Shown here piece after piece: positions 28,875 to 48,359 of a stretch of 64,000 bases of DNA. The translations under genes were made by a program, and so were the position numbers. The number at the start of each line of letters is the position of its first letter. Positions within the stretch are counted from its first letter, which is position 1. Below the pieces are notes generated by a model. That model did no database searches and was not told the origin of the DNA. It saw only the letters and a program-made list of their open reading frames with translations. This DNA comes from Polaribacter sp. Q13 (GTDB lineage: Bacteria; Bacteroidota; Bacteroidia; Flavobacteriales; Flavobacteriaceae): the NCBI RefSeq assembly GCF_016858305.2, contig NZ_CP074436.1, forward strand, positions 3,244,001-3,308,000. The letters run 5' to 3'.

Positions 28875-29465
28875 TTATATTGTAAAGTTGTTGGTATAAG
28901 TTCTGTCATCAGAATTAATAACTACAGTATAATTACCAACTTTTTTTTCTGATAATTTGTACACTCTTTTTAAAAGATCGTTACCAGATATGGTTTCAGA
29001 TAAAATCGTATTCCCTTTATAATAAATAACAACTTTTAAAGGCTCTTTGTTAAAAGCGATTTTAGAAACATATAATAAATGTCCTTCATTTCTGATGATT
29101 GGTTTAAATATTTTTTCATTCTTATTGTTTAAGAAAGTAACCAAACCGTTTTCAACATAAAATTGTTTAATTACAATTTCGAAGTCTTTATTTAACTCAG
29201 CAGAATAAATTCCGTTTTCTAAAGCAGAAAAATCAAATGTTCTAGAATAGTCTCCAGAATTTTGAATGTCATTATTATATACAGTTAAACCGTTGGCATT
29301 TTTAATGGTTAAAGTCTGACCTTTTTTTACATTAGCAAATTCAACCTTAACAGTTCTCTTAGCTTCTTTAGAGTTGGTATTATCTTTGTCCTTTGCGTTA
29401 GTTATTAATGTTCCGAACATTAAAGCAACTAATATTATTTTTTTAATTTTCATTTTATTTGTCAT
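28875..29465 (-). CDS. Secreted array paralog 3
   Basis: A 196-aa protein with signal peptide ending in LITNA, then a Lys-rich linker and two beta-rich halves. It is identical in protein sequence to paralog 5, which lies exactly 1,677 bases away. Two starts are possible (29465 and the internal ATG at 29453, giving MKIKKIILVALMFG); the -7 box at 29486-29493 allows both. No catalytic motif is seen; function is unknown. Confidence 0.8.
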   Translation of the reverse strand: MTNKMKIKKIILVALMFGTLITNAKDKDNTNSKEAKRTVKVEFANVKKGQTLTIKNANGLTVYNNDIQNSGDYSRTFDFSALENGIYSAELNKDFEIVIKQFYVENGLVTFLNNKNEKIFKPIIRNEGHLLYVSKIAFNKEPLKVVIYYKGNTILSETISGNDLLKRVYKLSEKKVGNYTVVINSDDRTYTNNFTI

Positions 29466-29485
29466 TTATATGATTAATAACACTA

Positions 29486-29530
29486 CAAAGGTATGGTGGT
29501 AATTAAGTTTTAAAAACATCAAAATTGGTA
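29486..29530 (-). promoter_or_regulatory. Promoter and conserved box of paralog 3
   Basis: TACCTTTG on the minus strand at 29486-29493; conserved box at 29509-29530, reading AAAAACATCAAAATTGGTA on the plus strand. Confidence 0.6.
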
Positions 29531-29637
29531 CAATTATGTGTTATATTATCACTATTGATTGATGTTAATTTATTGTTAAGTTAAAATAGCATATAATAGT
29601 GGTAATTTTATTTATTTTAAAAAAAAGTGTTTCAAAT

Positions 29638-29666
29638 AAAAAGCGAGTCCTTTTGGACTCGCTTTT
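29638..29666 (-). terminator. Terminator of paralog 4
   Basis: AAAGCGAGTCC TTTT GGACTCGCTTT stem, the same as the one after paralog 3. Confidence 0.8.
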
Positions 29667-29712
29667 ACCATTAAACTATAGCAGTAGTTTAACGAAACAA
29701 TTAACTAAATTT

Positions 29713-30303
29713 TTATATTGTAAATTCTTTAACGTAAGTTCTGTCATCAGAATTAATAACAACTTTATAGTTTCCAGATTTTTTTTCTGATAACTTATAA
29801 ATTCTTTTTAAGATATTTTCTCCTTGTATTGTGTTAGATAGAACTACTTCATTATTAAAATATATAACAACTTTTAAAGGTTCTTTGTTAAAAGCAATTT
29901 TAGAAACATATAACAAATTATTTTCAGTTCTAATTACTGGTTTAAATATTTTTTCATTCTTGTTATTTAAAAAAGTAACCAATCCGTTTTCAACGTAAAA
30001 TTGTTTAATAATAATTTCGAAGTCTTTATTTAACTCAGCAGAATAAATTCCGTTTTCTAAAGCAGAAAAATCAAATGTTCTAGAATAGTCTCCAGAATTT
30101 TGAATGTCATTATTATATACAGTTAAACCGTTGGCATTTTTAATGGTTAAAGTCTGACCTTTTTTTACATTATTAAATTCAACTTTAACAGTTCTCTTAG
30201 CTTCTTTAGAGTTGGTATTATCTTTGTCGTTTGCGTTAGTTATTAATGTTCCGAACATTAAAGCAACTAATATTATTTTCTTAATTTTCATTTTATTTGT
30301 CAT
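29713..30303 (-). CDS. Secreted array paralog 4
   Basis: A 196-aa paralog. The N-terminal two thirds match paralog 3 almost exactly, while the C-terminal third differs (VVLSNTIQGENILKRIYKL against TILSETISGNDLLKRVYKL). That uneven similarity suggests gene conversion between neighbours. It is identical to paralog 6 except for one residue near the N-terminus. Own promoter and terminator; function unknown. Confidence 0.8.
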   Translation of the reverse strand: MTNKMKIKKIILVALMFGTLITNANDKDNTNSKEAKRTVKVEFNNVKKGQTLTIKNANGLTVYNNDIQNSGDYSRTFDFSALENGIYSAELNKDFEIIIKQFYVENGLVTFLNNKNEKIFKPVIRTENNLLYVSKIAFNKEPLKVVIYFNNEVVLSNTIQGENILKRIYKLSEKKSGNYKVVINSDDRTYVKEFTI

Positions 30304-30323
30304 TTATATGATTAATAACACTA

Positions 30324-30368
30324 CAAAGGTATGGTGGTAATTAAGTTTTAAAAACATCAAAATTGGTA
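30324..30368 (-). promoter_or_regulatory. Promoter and conserved box of paralog 4
   Basis: TACCTTTG on the minus strand at 30324-30331; conserved box at 30347-30368. Confidence 0.6.
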
Positions 30369-30476
30369 TAATTATGTGTTATATTATCACTATTGATTTA
30401 TGTTAATTTATTGTTAAGTTAAAATAGTATATAATAGTGGTAATTTTATTTATTTTAAAAAAAAGTGTTTTCAAAT

Positions 30477-30505
30477 AAAAAGCGAGTCCTTTTGGACTCG
30501 CTTTT
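30477..30505 (-). terminator. Terminator of paralog 5
   Basis: Copy of the AAAAGCGAGTCC / GGACTCGCTTTT stem, offset by 1,677 from the one at 28800. Confidence 0.8.
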
Positions 30506-30551
30506 ACGATCAAACTATAGCAGTAGTTTAACCTAACAATTAACTAAATTT

Positions 30552-31142
30552 TTATATTGTAAAGTTGTTGGTATAAGTTCTGTCATCAGAATTAATAACT
30601 ACAGTATAATTACCAACTTTTTTTTCTGATAATTTGTACACTCTTTTTAAAAGATCGTTACCAGATATGGTTTCAGATAAAATCGTATTCCCTTTATAAT
30701 AAATAACAACTTTTAAAGGCTCTTTGTTAAAAGCGATTTTAGAAACATATAATAAATGTCCTTCATTTCTGATGATTGGTTTAAATATTTTTTCATTCTT
30801 ATTGTTTAAGAAAGTAACCAAACCGTTTTCAACATAAAATTGTTTAATTACAATTTCGAAGTCTTTATTTAACTCAGCAGAATAAATTCCGTTTTCTAAA
30901 GCAGAAAAATCAAATGTTCTAGAATAGTCTCCAGAATTTTGAATGTCATTATTATATACAGTTAAACCGTTGGCATTTTTAATGGTTAAAGTCTGACCTT
31001 TTTTTACATTAGCAAATTCAACCTTAACAGTTCTCTTAGCTTCTTTAGAGTTGGTATTATCTTTGTCCTTTGCGTTAGTTATTAATGTTCCGAACATTAA
31101 AGCAACTAATATTATTTTTTTAATTTTCATTTTATTTGTCAT
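30552..31142 (-). CDS. Secreted array paralog 5 (identical to paralog 3)
   Basis: The 196-aa protein is identical to paralog 3. Signal peptide, linker and two beta-rich halves are as described there. Because the DNA is also nearly identical, read mapping and expression studies cannot separate the two copies, and the copy number in the genome could be mis-assembled. Confidence 0.8.
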   Translation of the reverse strand: MTNKMKIKKIILVALMFGTLITNAKDKDNTNSKEAKRTVKVEFANVKKGQTLTIKNANGLTVYNNDIQNSGDYSRTFDFSALENGIYSAELNKDFEIVIKQFYVENGLVTFLNNKNEKIFKPIIRNEGHLLYVSKIAFNKEPLKVVIYYKGNTILSETISGNDLLKRVYKLSEKKVGNYTVVINSDDRTYTNNFTI

Positions 31143-31162
31143 TTATATGATTAATAACACTA

Positions 31163-31207
31163 CAAAGGTATGGTGGTAATTAAGTTTTAAAAACATCAAA
31201 ATTGGTA
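31163..31207 (-). promoter_or_regulatory. Promoter and conserved box of paralog 5
   Basis: TACCTTTG on the minus strand at 31163-31170; conserved box at 31186-31207. Confidence 0.6.
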
Positions 31208-31315
31208 CAATTATGTGTTATATTATCACTATTGATTGATGTTAATTTATTGTTAAGTTAAAATAGCATATAATAGTGGTAATTTTATTTATTTTAAAAA
31301 AAAGTGTTTCAAATA

Positions 31316-31343
31316 AAAAGCGAGTCCTTTTGGACTCGCTTTT
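31316..31343 (-). terminator. Terminator of paralog 6
   Basis: AAGCGAGTCC TTTT GGACTCGCTT stem, offset by 1,677 from the one at 29638. Confidence 0.8.
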
Positions 31344-31389
31344 ACCATTAAACTATAGCAGTAGTTTAACGAAACAATTAACTAAATTT

Positions 31390-31980
31390 TTATATTGTAA
31401 ATTCTTTAACGTAAGTTCTGTCATCAGAATTAATAACAACTTTATAGTTTCCAGATTTTTTTTCTGATAACTTATAAATTCTTTTTAAGATATTTTCTCC
31501 TTGTATTGTGTTAGATAGAACTACTTCATTATTAAAATATATAACAACTTTTAAAGGTTCTTTGTTAAAAGCAATTTTAGAAACATATAACAAATTATTT
31601 TCAGTTCTAATTACTGGTTTAAATATTTTTTCATTCTTGTTATTTAAAAAAGTAACCAATCCGTTTTCAACGTAAAATTGTTTAATAATAATTTCGAAGT
31701 CTTTATTTAACTCAGCAGAATAAATTCCGTTTTCTAAAGCAGAAAAATCAAATGTTCTAGAATAGTCTCCAGAATTTTGAATGTCATTATTATATACAGT
31801 TAAACCGTTGGCATTTTTAATGGTTAAAGTCTGACCTTTTTTTACATTATTAAATTCAACTTTAACAGTTCTCTTAGCTTCTTTAGAGTTGGTATTATCT
31901 TTGTCGTTTGCGTTAGTTATTAATGTTCCGAACATTAAAGCAACTAATATTATTTTCTTAATTTCCATTTTATTTGTCAT
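31390..31980 (-). CDS. Secreted array paralog 6 (one residue from paralog 4)
   Basis: The 196-aa protein differs from paralog 4 only at residue 6 (MTNKMEIKK against MTNKMKIKK). The Lys-to-Glu change lies in the positive n-region of the signal peptide. Its promoter differs too: the -7 box is TAATTTTG (minus strand, 32001-32008) rather than TACCTTTG. This is the promoter-proximal end of the array next to the AraC regulator. Confidence 0.8.
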   Translation of the reverse strand: MTNKMEIKKIILVALMFGTLITNANDKDNTNSKEAKRTVKVEFNNVKKGQTLTIKNANGLTVYNNDIQNSGDYSRTFDFSALENGIYSAELNKDFEIIIKQFYVENGLVTFLNNKNEKIFKPVIRTENNLLYVSKIAFNKEPLKVVIYFNNEVVLSNTIQGENILKRIYKLSEKKSGNYKVVINSDDRTYVKEFTI

Positions 31981-43966: not shown

Positions 43967-44563
43967 ATGCGTTATCTTAAATATCTTACTATTTTTCTTT
44001 TGGGATTTATATTTGCTAAATTTTTGTGCAATAAAAAGGAGGCAACACACGAAAAAGAGGAAATACAAGTTGTGGTAACCTCCATTAAGAATTTGAGTAA
44101 ACTAGTTGTTTCTAAAGGTACTTTCTCTGAAGTTTATAATTATTCAGATTCTAAAAAATATTTTTACGACTATCTTTCTTTTGATAAAAAAGCTATTATT
44201 ACGGTAAATGCCAATGTTGAGGTTGGATATGATTTATCTAAATTAGAAATTCAAATAGATTCTATTGGTAAAAGAATTATCATCAATAAGATACCAAAAG
44301 AAGAAGTTGTAATTTCTCCTGATGTAAAATATTTCGATTTACAACAAAGTCAGTTTAATACTTTTTCTAAGTATGATTTAAATAAAATCAACCAAAAAAG
44401 TATTGAGAAAATCAAACAAACAATTGAAGTAACTGATTTAAAAAAGAAAGCTAAAGAAAGGCTTTTTGAAGAATTATCTAAAATTTATCAACTCTCTGTA
44501 ATTTACGATTGGCAAGTTGTAGATAATACGGGTTCTGGTTTTTCGAAACAATTTAAAGATTAA
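43967..44563 (+). CDS. DUF4230 domain protein
   Basis: A 198-aa protein with one N-terminal membrane helix (YLKYLTIFLLGFIFAKFL) and a large soluble domain. The block VNANVEVGYDLSKLEIQI is what I recognise as DUF4230, a family of unknown function. It converges with the dioxygenase gene, and the two genes overlap by 4 bases. Confidence 0.75.
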   Translation: MRYLKYLTIFLLGFIFAKFLCNKKEATHEKEEIQVVVTSIKNLSKLVVSKGTFSEVYNYSDSKKYFYDYLSFDKKAIITVNANVEVGYDLSKLEIQIDSIGKRIIINKIPKEEVVISPDVKYFDLQQSQFNTFSKYDLNKINQKSIEKIKQTIEVTDLKKKAKERLFEELSKIYQLSVIYDWQVVDNTGSGFSKQFKD

Positions 44564-45321
44564 ATTGACCAATCTCCCCACATAGATTTAAAAGTTTCTC
44601 TAGTTTCATTTTCTTTTAAATGTTTTCCAAACCGTCCAAATATTCCTATTCTAGGTGTTGCATTTGTATTCATAGAACCATTGTGTAGAAGCATAGAATG
44701 CCATAATAAAACAGTACCTGGTTTTGCTGTAAATTGTATTGGTTTTCCAGATACAATTTCTTGGTATTTTTCTTGAATTTTATCTGCAGTTAGGTTTGAA
44801 ATATCAAAATAATAATTTGGATTCTCTTTTATAAACTTCCATATTTTTTTATGACTTTTTGGCCAAAAAATAAAACAGCCTCCATTTTCTTTGGTTTCAA
44901 TCGCGTAGGCAGTGTACCCAATCATAAAACGCCAATTAAAATTTTTAGGCGTTAAATCTATATGTGCTAAATTAGGTAACGCCCATTTTTTTGTAGGGTT
45001 AGGAGCATGAATAATAAATTGCTCCATACCACCATCTATAGTTTTACCTGCTAATTGTTGTACAGCTTTTTTAATTTTAGAATGATTGTTAATTGTATTT
45101 TTTTTATTAGAAAATTTTAAAAAATTAACACTTTTTCCATTTCCTTTCTCTTTTAATGGATAAGAAGTCGGTTTTGAAATATCAAGTCCGAAATAGTTTT
45201 CAAAATCAGAAAGCCATGTATCAGTAATATTTTTTTCAATAATATTTTCTAAAATTAAATATCCGTTTTCTTTAAAAAATACTATTTGATCTTTTGATAA
45301 AGGTAAATTTGGTTTGTTCAT
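44560..45321 (-). CDS. PhyH-type Fe(II)/2-oxoglutarate dioxygenase
   Basis: A 253-aa phytanoyl-CoA dioxygenase-fold protein. The iron triad is His120-x-Asp122 (LAHIDLTPKNF) with His213 in WHSMLLHNGSMN, and Arg224 (ATPRIGIF) fits the 2-oxoglutarate salt bridge. PhyH enzymes hydroxylate small molecules, lipids or, in some natural-product clusters, peptides. It is the last gene of the four-gene operon after the 56-aa peptide, 1 base after the kinase-like gene, so a role on that peptide is inferred. Confidence 0.85.
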   Translation of the reverse strand: MNKPNLPLSKDQIVFFKENGYLILENIIEKNITDTWLSDFENYFGLDISKPTSYPLKEKGNGKSVNFLKFSNKKNTINNHSKIKKAVQQLAGKTIDGGMEQFIIHAPNPTKKWALPNLAHIDLTPKNFNWRFMIGYTAYAIETKENGGCFIFWPKSHKKIWKFIKENPNYYFDISNLTADKIQEKYQEIVSGKPIQFTAKPGTVLLWHSMLLHNGSMNTNATPRIGIFGRFGKHLKENETRETFKSMWGDWSI

Positions 45322-45322
45322 T

Positions 45323-45937
45323 TTAATAAATTTTTAGAAGTTCTTCTTCTTTAGGAAAATCATTAAAAGTTGCTTTTAATTCTTGAAGTAGATTAGGGTG
45401 AATTCTTTTTAAAAAATGACACATACTAATCCATTCATAAAAAACTCCTTTTTCACTTCTTTGTTTAGCCCATTTAAAATCGAAAGCAATAAGTTGATTA
45501 TTTTTAATTGCTAAATTTCTAGGATCTCCATTCCCTTTAAATAATCCATTTTTTTGATACTCATTATACATTTCAACAACTTGTTGTACTATGTTTTTTG
45601 GCATTTTTTCTTTGTTTGCTAGAATGGTATATAAATCATTATTAACAAACTCTTGAACAATACTCATTTCATTCTCATTATAATCAATTAATGTAGGAAC
45701 ATATTTACTGTCTTTAAGAATAGATAGCCAATGCAGTTCATTCGCAAATAATTTTCGCATTTCTAAAACAGAATTTATCACTGGTTTTTTTCCAGAAACA
45801 GTTGTTCCATTTATATCATAAACACGTTTAAGTGTTTTCTTATCATTACTAATATAGATACTTAATAGCGTGCCAACTGTAGCTCCATTTTTAATATTAG
45901 TATTAGCTAATGGATGTTTGTATAAGTTCCATTTCAT
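45323..45937 (-). CDS. Miniature kinase-fold protein
   Basis: A 204-aa protein that keeps the protein-kinase-like core in reduced form: Lys37 (beta-3), Glu67 (helix C), hinge VQEFV, catalytic loop GNGDPRNLAIKNN with Asp138 and Asn141, and metal-binding Asp153 in FDFKW replacing DFG. All key residues are present, so catalysis is plausible. It is about 70 residues shorter than typical kinases and resembles lipopolysaccharide/Kdo kinase-like or APH-like proteins. It overlaps the preceding gene by 35 bases. Confidence 0.75.
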   Translation of the reverse strand: MKWNLYKHPLANTNIKNGATVGTLLSIYISNDKKTLKRVYDINGTTVSGKKPVINSVLEMRKLFANELHWLSILKDSKYVPTLIDYNENEMSIVQEFVNNDLYTILANKEKMPKNIVQQVVEMYNEYQKNGLFKGNGDPRNLAIKNNQLIAFDFKWAKQRSEKGVFYEWISMCHFLKRIHPNLLQELKATFNDFPKEEELLKIY

Positions 45938-46778
45938 GTTTTTTTTGTTTATCGTTTTTTCCTAAGGAAGTATAAAATCGAAACCCAGTTTTATAAGTTA
46001 GCATTGCAGAAATTGTTTGTAGAGTAGAAGACAATTGTATCCCTATTTCATTTACTTTTTGATTTTTTTCTAAGGAAGAAAACTCTTTTTCATAGTATCC
46101 AATAAACCCAATTGTACTTTGGTTGTGTGTTAAAAAAGTTAAGGCAGTATTTATTGCTAATGAGTTTGGAGCATTAACGTAGGATAAAGCATTTAATATT
46201 CTACTCACTTGTTGTAAATTATAATCGCTACAAGCTATTATTAAAAAAGCTTCTAAAATTGTAATTAATTTAAGAGGACGGTTTGTAATAGAAATTAAAC
46301 CATGATATGTTTTTTGTTCAATTTCATTTAAAAGAAAACCAATTTCTTTTTTTGTCATAGTAGTAAAATTAGATGCTATTTTTAAAGAGAATGGTACGTG
46401 TTTACTACTAATATGTTGTTTGTTTGCAGTTGTTAAAAGTAAAAAAGAGGGAAGTAACTCTTTTGTGATTTTTTCAGAAGAAAGAACCTTATAATAGTCA
46501 ATTATTAAATTTTTTAATCCTTTAGGATATTCTTCATTAACTTCAAAATAGACAATTGCATATTGTAATAATAATTGTAGGTTTTTTAGATTAACTTTTT
46601 CAGTTCTTTTTTTTTCAAACTCTTTTATTAAATGTTTAAATTCTTTTTGAATTTTTGTGTCTTTATAACTACAAATTGAAGCTAAAATAATTGCTGTTAA
46701 AGCGGTTTCTTTATCCGTATTATTTGTGTTTTTTATTGCAAAATAGAATCCTTTTTTAAGTACTTTTTGAAACGCCAT
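45903..46778 (-). CDS. Alpha-helical protein of unknown function (operon gene B)
   Basis: A 291-aa protein without signal peptide, predicted almost wholly helical. Near the C-terminus FLTHNQSTIGFIGYY resembles the Q-x3-G-F/W repeats of alpha/alpha-toroid enzymes, and the same pattern occurs in gene A. I chose the ATG at 46778, 2 bases after the gene A stop, over a longer frame to 46814 that overlaps gene A by 34 bases. I do not recognise the family. Context suggests it works with gene A. Confidence 0.65.
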   Translation of the reverse strand: MAFQKVLKKGFYFAIKNTNNTDKETALTAIILASICSYKDTKIQKEFKHLIKEFEKKRTEKVNLKNLQLLLQYAIVYFEVNEEYPKGLKNLIIDYYKVLSSEKITKELLPSFLLLTTANKQHISSKHVPFSLKIASNFTTMTKKEIGFLLNEIEQKTYHGLISITNRPLKLITILEAFLIIACSDYNLQQVSRILNALSYVNAPNSLAINTALTFLTHNQSTIGFIGYYEKEFSSLEKNQKVNEIGIQLSSTLQTISAMLTYKTGFRFYTSLGKNDKQKKHEMELIQTSIS

Positions 46779-46780
46779 AA

Positions 46781-47698
46781 TTAATTTATTAAATATTCGT
46801 GTTCTAATAAACATGCAAATAAGCCAACTAGAGTTGGATGGTAGTTTACGTCAAAGACATCTTTATCATTTACCATTTCTCCTTTTTTCAATTTTTCTTG
46901 TATATACCTACTTGTAAAATCACCTTTCTTATTTTGTGCATTTAATAATTTTTGCCAACATTCTATAAACAAAGGATGGTTTCTGTAATTAAGATTATGA
47001 CAGCAGATTAAAAGTTCTGCTAGTAAATCCCAATCTTCCTTTAATGCATATTTTATCATTAAATTACCAATATGTTCGGCTGTTTTATCTTTTTTATCTT
47101 CTAAAAGATGATCTATATTTTTATTTCCAAAATCAGTTAAATGAAATAAAATATGCGTTAAAGCATATACATCAATATCTCTTATGTGAATTAAATTTGG
47201 AAGGTGATACAAACTAGAAGTTTTGTACATCTGATCATAAGAAGCCATATTATGTTTAAAACCTCCAAAGTCTAATTGATATTTAAAATCTATTTGGTTC
47301 CAAGCAGTTCGTTCAATGCAATCCATAAAGTTTGCATCTATAATGTTTTGTAATAATTGTTTATAGTCTTTAAATTCTATTTTCATACTATACAAACCAT
47401 TGTATAACATTAAATAGAAAGGGAAAAGATTAAGATCTCTTGTAATACCTCTGTAAAAATCTTTAGAATTACAAATTTCTTTTATAAAGGAGATGATTTT
47501 TTTTGCTCGATAGTCTTCTTTATAAGAAGTATTTCTGCTAAGAATTAACAATGTTATTGCAAGTTCTCCTAAACGTTTTCTTTGCATATCTAAATTCGGA
47601 TTTTTTTCTACATCATTACTATTTATATTAAAGTAATGCAGATTATTATTTATCCAAGTAAGACTTTTATCAATCGATATTTCTAATTGTTGTTTCAT
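46781..47698 (-). CDS. Alpha-helical protein, DUF6895-like (operon gene A)
   Basis: A 305-aa helical protein. The blocks DVYALTHILFHLTDFG, LLAELLICCHNL, LLNAQNKKGDF and NYHPTLVGLFACLLEHEYLI recall DUF6895, and LNAQNKKGDF is like the QW motifs of alpha/alpha-toroid cyclases. This family recall is from memory and should be tested. It is the first gene after the 56-aa peptide, behind a hairpin, and is followed by gene B with a 2-base gap. Confidence 0.65.
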   Translation of the reverse strand: MKQQLEISIDKSLTWINNNLHYFNINSNDVEKNPNLDMQRKRLGELAITLLILSRNTSYKEDYRAKKIISFIKEICNSKDFYRGITRDLNLFPFYLMLYNGLYSMKIEFKDYKQLLQNIIDANFMDCIERTAWNQIDFKYQLDFGGFKHNMASYDQMYKTSSLYHLPNLIHIRDIDVYALTHILFHLTDFGNKNIDHLLEDKKDKTAEHIGNLMIKYALKEDWDLLAELLICCHNLNYRNHPLFIECWQKLLNAQNKKGDFTSRYIQEKLKKGEMVNDKDVFDVNYHPTLVGLFACLLEHEYLIN

Positions 47699-47709
47699 GT
47701 TTTATAATA

Positions 47710-47740
47710 AAGAAGAGTATTCTTATTGAATACTCTTCTT
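47710..47740 (-). terminator. Hairpin between the 56-aa peptide gene and gene A
   Basis: A perfect 13-bp stem (AAGAAGAGTATTC / GAATACTCTTCTT) with a 5-base loop lies 8 bases after the peptide stop and 11 bases before the gene A start, inside the operon. It could act as a partial terminator or a 3'-end stabiliser so that the peptide is made in excess over the downstream enzymes. Confidence 0.75.
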
Positions 47741-47748
47741 TATAAGAA

Positions 47749-47919
47749 TTAGTGAGATACAAAAAATCCTGGAGAAATAATTGCTGTCATAACAATTGGA
47801 TTTCCTTTTTGGTCTCCTTTACTAGCTAGGTTAGAAGCAAAATCTGCAAATTGCTCTAAGTTTGTTACTCCTTCTTTTTTTAATGCATCTAAAACTGCTT
47901 GTTTTGAATTTGTGCTCAT
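47749..47919 (-). CDS. 56-aa peptide, candidate precursor of a modified peptide
   Basis: The frame runs from an ATG at 47919 to a TAA at 47749. The product has a helical charged N-terminal part (SKQAVLDALKKEGVTNLEQF) and a hydrophobic tail (GNPIVMTAIISPGFFVSH) after a Lys/Gly-rich hinge, the leader-core design of ribosomal natural products. It contains no cysteine. A hairpin and then the four-gene operon follow. Its function is inferred only from layout and neighbours. Confidence 0.7.
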   Translation of the reverse strand: MSTNSKQAVLDALKKEGVTNLEQFADFASNLASKGDQKGNPIVMTAIISPGFFVSH

Positions 47920-47969
47920 AATATATAATTTAAAATATTTCCTACTCTATATAGCTTTTCGGATTCGGC

Positions 47970-48020
47970 TATTCTTAAAAGGTATTAAGAATACTGTAAA
48001 ATTACCGAGAAAGTATTCTT
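47970..48020. promoter_or_regulatory. Iterated TATTCTT/AAGAATA boxes upstream of the 56-aa peptide
   Basis: TATTCTTAA (47970-47978) and TTAAGAATA (47985-47993) form a 9-bp palindrome; AAGAATACT (47987-47995) and AGTATTCTT (48012-48020) form a second, overlapping one. They lie about 50-100 bases before the peptide start and could bind a dimeric regulator such as the response regulator at 52.9 kb; that link is a guess. Confidence 0.4.
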
Positions 48021-48075
48021 TATTTAAGAGCATAAATACTGATTTATCTAAAAGGGTGAAAGTACCCATATAAAA

Positions 48076-48157
48076 AAAGGCTATCAAAAATTAATTTGAC
48101 AGCCTTTATAAAAAGTAGTTTAAAATAAAAAAGGTTGCCAAATTTGACAACCTTTTT
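48076..48157 (-). terminator. Two tandem terminators after the 53-aa peptide
   Basis: On the minus strand the stem at 48128-48157 (AAAAAGGTTG / CAACCTTTTT) is followed by a second stem at 48076-48107 (AAAGGCT / AGCCTTT with TCAAA/TTTGA). Each has a T-run on that strand. A further 9-bp hairpin lies at 48164-48191. Together they insulate the peptide operon at 47.9 kb from the T9SS gene's transcript. Confidence 0.75.
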
Positions 48158-48197
48158 AGAATTAGTATTACAATTCCTCAACTGTAATACTTTATTT

Positions 48198-48359
48198 TTA
48201 GAACCCAGCACCTGGAGCCTCAGGACTAGAAGCTTGCGCTTTCTGTGGGTTTAAAATTAGATAAGTACCTAATGCTGTTAAAGCAGCGTATTTACCGTAA
48301 TTCCCAATTTTTTTAATTGCTTGCTTACGAGTAATTTCATTTTTATTATTTGTTTTCAT
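48198..48359 (-). CDS. 53-aa peptide with Tat-like leader
   Basis: The frame runs from an ATG at 48359 to a TAA at 48198. The product has a charged start with TRKQAIKKIGNYGKYAAL, a hydrophobic stretch (LTALGTYLIL), the Ala-x-Ala site QKAQA and then only ten more residues (SSPEAPGAGF). The layout recalls a Tat signal with Arg-Lys instead of Arg-Arg, or a small exported peptide. It starts 24 bases after the T9SS gene stop, so it is co-transcribed with that gene. Confidence 0.7.
   Translation of the reverse strand: MKTNNKNEITRKQAIKKIGNYGKYAALTALGTYLILNPQKAQASSPEAPGAGF

Follow-up and report, generated by a model that had tools for sequence, protein, structure and literature searches.

The window analyzed here is a 64,000-nucleotide stretch of the genome of Polaribacter sp. 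Q13 (NZ_CP074436.1, positions 3,244,001 to 3,308,000), which is a single contig of 4.42 Mb. It contains a compact cassette of five open reading frames (ORFs), all on the minus strand, encoding a small peptide, a protein of the DUF6895 family (gene A), a helical partner protein (gene B), a small kinase-like protein (gene K) and a PhyH-type oxygenase (Table 1). The locus is a real and little-described one of the type that makes ribosomally synthesized and post-translationally modified peptides (RiPPs). Its interesting part is the core of DUF6895 protein and partner, which recurs in other phyla outside lasso peptide clusters. An initial annotation, made from the sequence alone, had described a gene for a Cys-free peptide of 56 amino acids, a hairpin and four closely spaced genes. 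All of these were confirmed in place, the hairpin is a strong one, and the 56 residues include no Cys. The ORF for gene B spans 45903-46814 (-), and its start is most likely at 46778, which gives the 291-amino-acid protein whose start is common to the B relatives. With that start the spacing given in the initial annotation also holds: 2 bases between A and B, a 35-base overlap of B and K, and 1 base between K and the PhyH gene.

Table 1. Cassette features in window coordinates.
Feature	Position	Strand	Evidence
PhyH-type Fe(II)/2-oxoglutarate oxygenase, accessory	44560..45321	-	PF05721, 50.1 bits
Gene K, small kinase-like protein, accessory	45323..45937	-	weak Bud32 matches
Gene B, helical protein and partner of A; 291 amino acids from the start common to relatives	45903..46778	-	7 homologs
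Gene A, candidate peptide epimerase of the DUF6895 family (PF21836)	46781..47698	-	194.3 bits
Hairpin between precursor and enzyme genes	47699..47748	-	-19.9 kcal/mol, z -7.34
Precursor peptide, 56 amino acids	47749..47919	-	homologs P0001-P0004
DUF805b cis-regulatory RNA motif (RF02914)	47939..47972	-	38.9 bits
Whole cassette; 38 / 63 bases in its place in two relatives	44565..48194		alignment of L065 (G737) and L064 (G669)

Precursor peptide, gene A and partner B

The last 18 residues of the peptide (39-56) are identical in the window's own copy (P0001) and its three database relatives (P0002-P0004). Every difference falls before residue 39, at five positions in P0002 and at ten, one of them a gap, in P0004; P0003 consists of the 56 residues of P0002 plus an extension. 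The reading frame is kept in all three relatives, as the initial annotation would predict. From this pattern, residues 1-38 are probably a leader and residues 39-56 the core. Divergent peptides occupy the same slot in other Flavobacteriaceae, with 52 amino acids in G700 (locus L016), 51 in G195 (L007) and 90 in G033 (L012). A small ORF lies upstream of the full-length DUF6895 gene in 5/5 genomes of the family (these three, the window's own, G000, and G705, locus L015), where G000 and G705 count as one on account of recently exchanged DNA. G705 shows no DNA differences from the window in the peptide gene (171 bases) or in A (918 bases), and 22, 24 and 36 base differences in B, K and the PhyH gene, but the flanks align at only 89 and 90 percent. 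Thus, the G705 locus stems from recent DNA exchange and adds no independent evidence.

In a tblastn search against plasmids, eight records from three other phyla proved to encode full-length DUF6895 proteins, in Pseudalkalibacillus (L051), Kitasatospora (L052, L056), Streptomyces (L053, L054, L055, L058) and Cupriavidus (L059). Record L060, which holds a B-like piece only, was left out of this count. A small ORF on the same strand is found upstream in 8/8 loci. It encodes 86 amino acids in L051, 65 in L052, 118 in L053 (about 72 if translation begins further in), 62 in L054, 106 in L055, 68 in both L056 and L058, and 125 in L059. The ORF is annotated in six of the records; of the two unannotated ones, that of L055 was recognized by its C-terminal likeness to the ORF of L054, and that of L059 is the weakest case. 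As a control we used the other genes of at least 200 amino acids in the six annotated plasmid stretches. Within two upstream genes, a same-strand ORF of at most 130 amino acids was present for 6/6 A genes and 8/36 others, and directly upstream for 4/6 and 4/36, a comparison that is rough because the plasmid gene tables are incomplete. Since each full-length DUF6895 gene read has a small ORF with it, homologs consistently lacking a peptide gene were not found, and the RiPP-like peptide-modification locus proposed in the initial annotation gains support.

These counts also bear on whether the substrate is a small molecule or another protein, with the small ORF unrelated or regulatory. PhyH and type II cyclase-like folds often have small-molecule substrates, and several of the DUF6895 loci lie near polyketide synthase genes. 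This explanation is nonetheless very improbable, given a small ORF upstream in every full-length locus read and more often than upstream of the 36 control genes, the unchanged 18 C-terminal residues of the peptide (P0004) while A drops to 77 percent identity (P0006), and the DNA identity of both peptide and A in G705.

Gene A is a full-length member of DUF6895, scoring 194.3 bits against a gathering score of 23.8 and covering profile positions 2-288 of 289. The chemistry suggested in the initial annotation was incomplete in that epimerization was missing. The only paper naming DUF6895 in our search of the open-access literature is a 2026 review in the Journal of the American Chemical Society (PMC13352647), whose reference list includes, by title, a DUF6895 lasso-peptide epimerase (Shi et al., ACS Catal. 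2026, 16, 1757). Because of this reported activity, epimerization is the leading hypothesis for gene A, which would form D-residues in the peptide. The predicted structure of A is a toroid (mean predicted local distance difference test score, pLDDT, 91.6), and ten residues are invariant in 31/31 A sequences. Two lipoprotein-like flavobacterial proteins (L013 6568-7590 and L014 5440-6624) match the DUF6895 profile over a portion of its length only and lack a peptide gene immediately upstream, possibly a different use of the fold.

For gene B we found no credible Pfam match up to an E-value of 10 and no NCBIfam match. B follows A in Flavobacteriaceae and in the Bacillota plasmid (L051), and the two are fused in two actinobacterial plasmids (L052, L053). 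In hhalign, flavobacterial B matches a profile built from the C-terminal halves of the two fusions, L060 and the gene following A in L051 (probability 92.5, pairwise E-value 4.7e-7, 86 columns), and matches the L051 gene alone with a probability of 69.0 (E-value 4.4e-5). The fusion in two records suggests that A and B act as one complex. B is a real partner of A, and peptide, A and B are the core of the cassette, to which K and PhyH are accessories.

In an approximate maximum-likelihood tree of the 31 A sequences (FastTree), the loci in which a gene X stands between the small ORF and A (G033, L054, L055, L056 and L059) form one clade with a support of 1.00, and the A-B loci fall outside it. 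The actinobacterial X-A loci (L054, L055, L056) are ordered as small ORF, gene X, one or two DUF6895 paralogs and then a serine-hydrolase gene. Their precursors, which end in SPPAPRPKKG, SPPTPRPKKG or SPKPPKEKPTR, make up a second family of peptides that goes with DUF6895. The DUF6895 locus of Streptomyces NBC_01243 (L058 4526-10796) adjoins a gene for a TnsA-like transposase subunit, and a gene of the aminoglycoside-phosphotransferase family lies about 3 kb downstream of it.

Leader RNA, hairpin and accessory genes

None of 200 shuffled sequences folds as well as the hairpin between the precursor gene and A. The same gap in other loci has unrelated sequences and also folds into hairpins (z -4.90 in G700, -2.51 in G195 and -2.74 in L051); no hairpin was found in the peptide-A gap of L052 or L058. 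The window hairpin is probably an attenuator. Placed after the precursor gene, it would leave more precursor than enzyme transcript.

From the end of the DUF805b motif (gathering score 35.6; E-value 1.6e-8) it is 19 bases to the start codon of the peptide gene, an ATG, and the motif is also found before the peptide gene of G700, at 35.7 bits, which is over the gathering score. A pattern drawn from the motif has a single match in the window, and 0/100 shuffles contain it. DUF805b is common in the genus, with matches at an E-value of 0.001 or better in 134/166 genomes, 102 of them over the cut-off. Among the matches read (L018-L050), 29/33 are followed, at a distance of 16-26 bases, by the ATG that opens an ORF of at least 40 amino acids; in one other this distance is 7 bases, and in three an ATG of this kind is lacking within 300 bases. 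The Rfam name refers to DUF805 genes; in this cassette the motif stands ahead of a RiPP-like precursor, and across the genus the genes that follow it are of many kinds. These include genes for lipoprotein-like and secreted proteins and, as we read them, bacteriocin-like peptides with Gly-Gly leaders (L023, L029). With such exported-type genes behind it, DUF805b may mark a regulon of exported products. A search of the open-access literature returned no paper on DUF805b and none on structured RNAs linked to DUF805. A separate RNA, Flavo-1 (44 bits, gathering score 42), lies upstream of the G033 peptide gene region on the opposite strand (L012 8917-9062, +).

Gene K matches Bud32 models at E-values of 3e-4 to 9e-4, far under their cut-offs, and has no Pfam kinase match; its best sequence match in the PDB is a kinase, and a weak one (E-value 0.4). 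Residues K37, E67, D138, N141 and D153 sit in what we read as kinase-like contexts. The catalytic residues noted for K in the initial annotation are therefore present on our reading, and the kinase fold it named has weak profile support. Its Fe(II)/2-oxoglutarate dioxygenase with an HxD...H motif was borne out: the PhyH protein is over the PF05721 cut-off of 22 bits, and H120-x-D122, H213 and R224 are present in positions that we take to serve metal and cosubstrate binding. Neither gene is present in the loci of G700, G195 and G033. K is missing as well from those plasmid loci that were read with annotation, whereas A is present throughout. Kinase-like and PhyH genes were seen with one core type only, and K was found in 2/166 genomes of the genus (G000 and G705), both with this cassette. 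Of the four-gene modification set first proposed, the A/B core with its peptide stands, and K and PhyH become accessories.

Proposed modification and known RiPP systems

The reading that we hold to be probable, by a little, is a RiPP cassette of a non-lasso type in which A and B epimerize the core, PhyH hydroxylates it, and K phosphorylates it or assists. The precursor, encoded behind the DUF805b leader RNA and before the attenuating hairpin, would be made in excess over the enzymes. A and its partner B would recognize the leader and, in the hydrophobic C-terminal core, invert one residue or several at the alpha-carbon. This would take place inside the alpha/alpha-toroid pocket and without a radical S-adenosylmethionine (SAM) center. 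Candidate acid and base residues in A are the invariant H182 and H287, beside E45, Y178, D224 and E228. In this core type PhyH might then hydroxylate a residue, with Pro50 and Pro41 as candidates. Proline is suggested because one core type has both Pro and PhyH and two have neither: the G700 and G195 peptides contain no Pro and their loci no PhyH gene. K might phosphorylate a Ser or Thr (T45, S49 or S55) or serve as a kinase-fold helper, and release and export would fall to proteins encoded elsewhere.

The lasso-peptide epimerase reported by Shi et al. is, going by its title, of the same Pfam family as A, and here too a small peptide gene lies beside A. The cassette differs from what that title describes in having partner B and the kinase-like and PhyH genes, and in lacking the lasso leader peptidase: none of the five genomes (G000, G705, G700, G195, G033) has a match to its family, PF13471, which speaks against a lasso cluster. 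In seven plasmid records (all but that of L055), PF13471 gave one weak match, under the cut-off (W06). No asparagine-synthetase-like lasso cyclase is present among the five cassette genes, the part of the genome searched for it. We also rejected a radical-SAM epimerized RiPP, as there is no radical-SAM protein among the five genes. This sets the cassette apart from the epipeptides (YydF/YydG), described in PMC10373908 as RiPPs modified by epimerization only, with which it shares a small precursor and, as proposed, D-residues. The same source lists MslH (lasso peptide MS-271) and GrmL (a linaridin) as RiPP epimerases that work without radical SAM. The inversion proposed here would be similar to theirs in needing no radical-SAM enzyme, and gene A differs from both in matching DUF6895 only. 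MslH has a metallophosphatase-like fold, which would differ from the toroid predicted for A. An open-access literature search found no paper that brings together RiPP epimerases, D-amino acids and Bacteroidota.

Another possibility is that A and B are lyase- or cyclase-like. K would phosphorylate Ser or Thr, A or B would eliminate the phosphate to leave a dehydro residue or close a ring, and PhyH would hydroxylate. The operon does include a kinase-like gene, the predicted fold of A is common to cyclases, and class V lanthipeptides, made with LanK, LanY and LanX, are dehydrated and cyclized by kinase-fold proteins according to PMC12291118. As in that class, a stand-alone kinase-like protein is encoded in a RiPP-like operon. 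The comparison drawn in the initial annotation did not hold further: LanK (PF01636) and LanY (PF17914) are unmatched up to an E-value of 10 in the five genes, and with no Cys in the precursor we rejected a class V lanthipeptide. The lack of Cys, the absence of K from loci where A is constant, and the report of DUF6895 as an epimerase family (a title in PMC13352647) make the lyase or cyclase route unlikely. A and B might also carry out some other core modification compatible with toroid folds, e.g., hydrolysis, a prenyl-type reaction or a change to the backbone. The cassette showed no gene for a prenyl donor and epimerization is the only activity reported for DUF6895, by that same title, and we find such a modification quite unlikely.

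Several observations weigh against the favored reading of the cassette. In fold searches of A, epimerases tie with terpene cyclases and GH105 hydrolases, and Foldseek alone gave no match under an E-value of 0.001; A may have diverged in function from the reported DUF6895 epimerase. None of the X-A loci has a B gene, and the 161-amino-acid gene that follows A in L058 is not detectably B by hhalign. The likeness of leaders across phyla is not significant. DUF805b is not over its gathering score in the peptide regions of L007 or L012, the kinase identity of K draws on weak matches, and no transporter or protease gene is present in the cassette.

A wider proposal, possible though on balance doubtful, is a separate RiPP class in Bacteroidota, Bacillota, Actinomycetota and, weakly, Pseudomonadota, made up of a small precursor and a DUF6895 toroid. 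One branch, in which the toroid stands with B or is fused to it, would be a radical-SAM-free, two-protein peptide epimerase using a histidine pair, its precursor under DUF805b control in some Flavobacteria, and the lasso-type DUF6895 epimerases would be one offshoot. If the favored reading of the cassette holds, a family of so-far-unassigned function would be tied to ribosomal peptides outside lasso clusters, and a DUF6895 gene beside a small ORF would be a search handle for D-residue peptides that current mining rules may miss. It would also mean an epimerase without a radical-SAM cofactor, and would link the expression of RiPPs with an RNA motif widespread in flavobacteria.

Distribution and genomic surroundings

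Full-length A is rare, with 3/166 genomes of the genus containing it (profile A1). PF21836 was detected in 6/397 genomes of the family (three full-length, three partial), in five genomes of a smaller, 249-genome sample of the family, and in 1/395 genomes of the phylum, the window's own. In G737 and G669 the alignment to the window breaks off at 44563/44564 and picks up again at 48195/48198; the two relatives have 38 and 63 bases, respectively, in the gap. As the flanks join across these few bases, the 3.6-kb cassette is missing in both relatives. Downstream of the DUF4230 gene, the cassette was seen in 0/7 relatives' loci (L064-L070; ORFs of at least 70 amino acids within about 1.5 kb), of which two, L064 and L065, are alone in having unchanged neighbors downstream.

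Next to the cassette, a 53-amino-acid protein with a signal-like stretch (..KKIGNYGKYAALTALGTYLILNPQKAQA..) is encoded at 48198-48359 (-), before the gene for a type IX-secreted protein of 1184 amino acids, and it is retained in G705 and G737. Elsewhere in the window (28875-31980, -) are four tandem ORFs of 196 amino acids, spaced by about 838 bases, each matching DUF3244 and a type IX sorting-tail profile.

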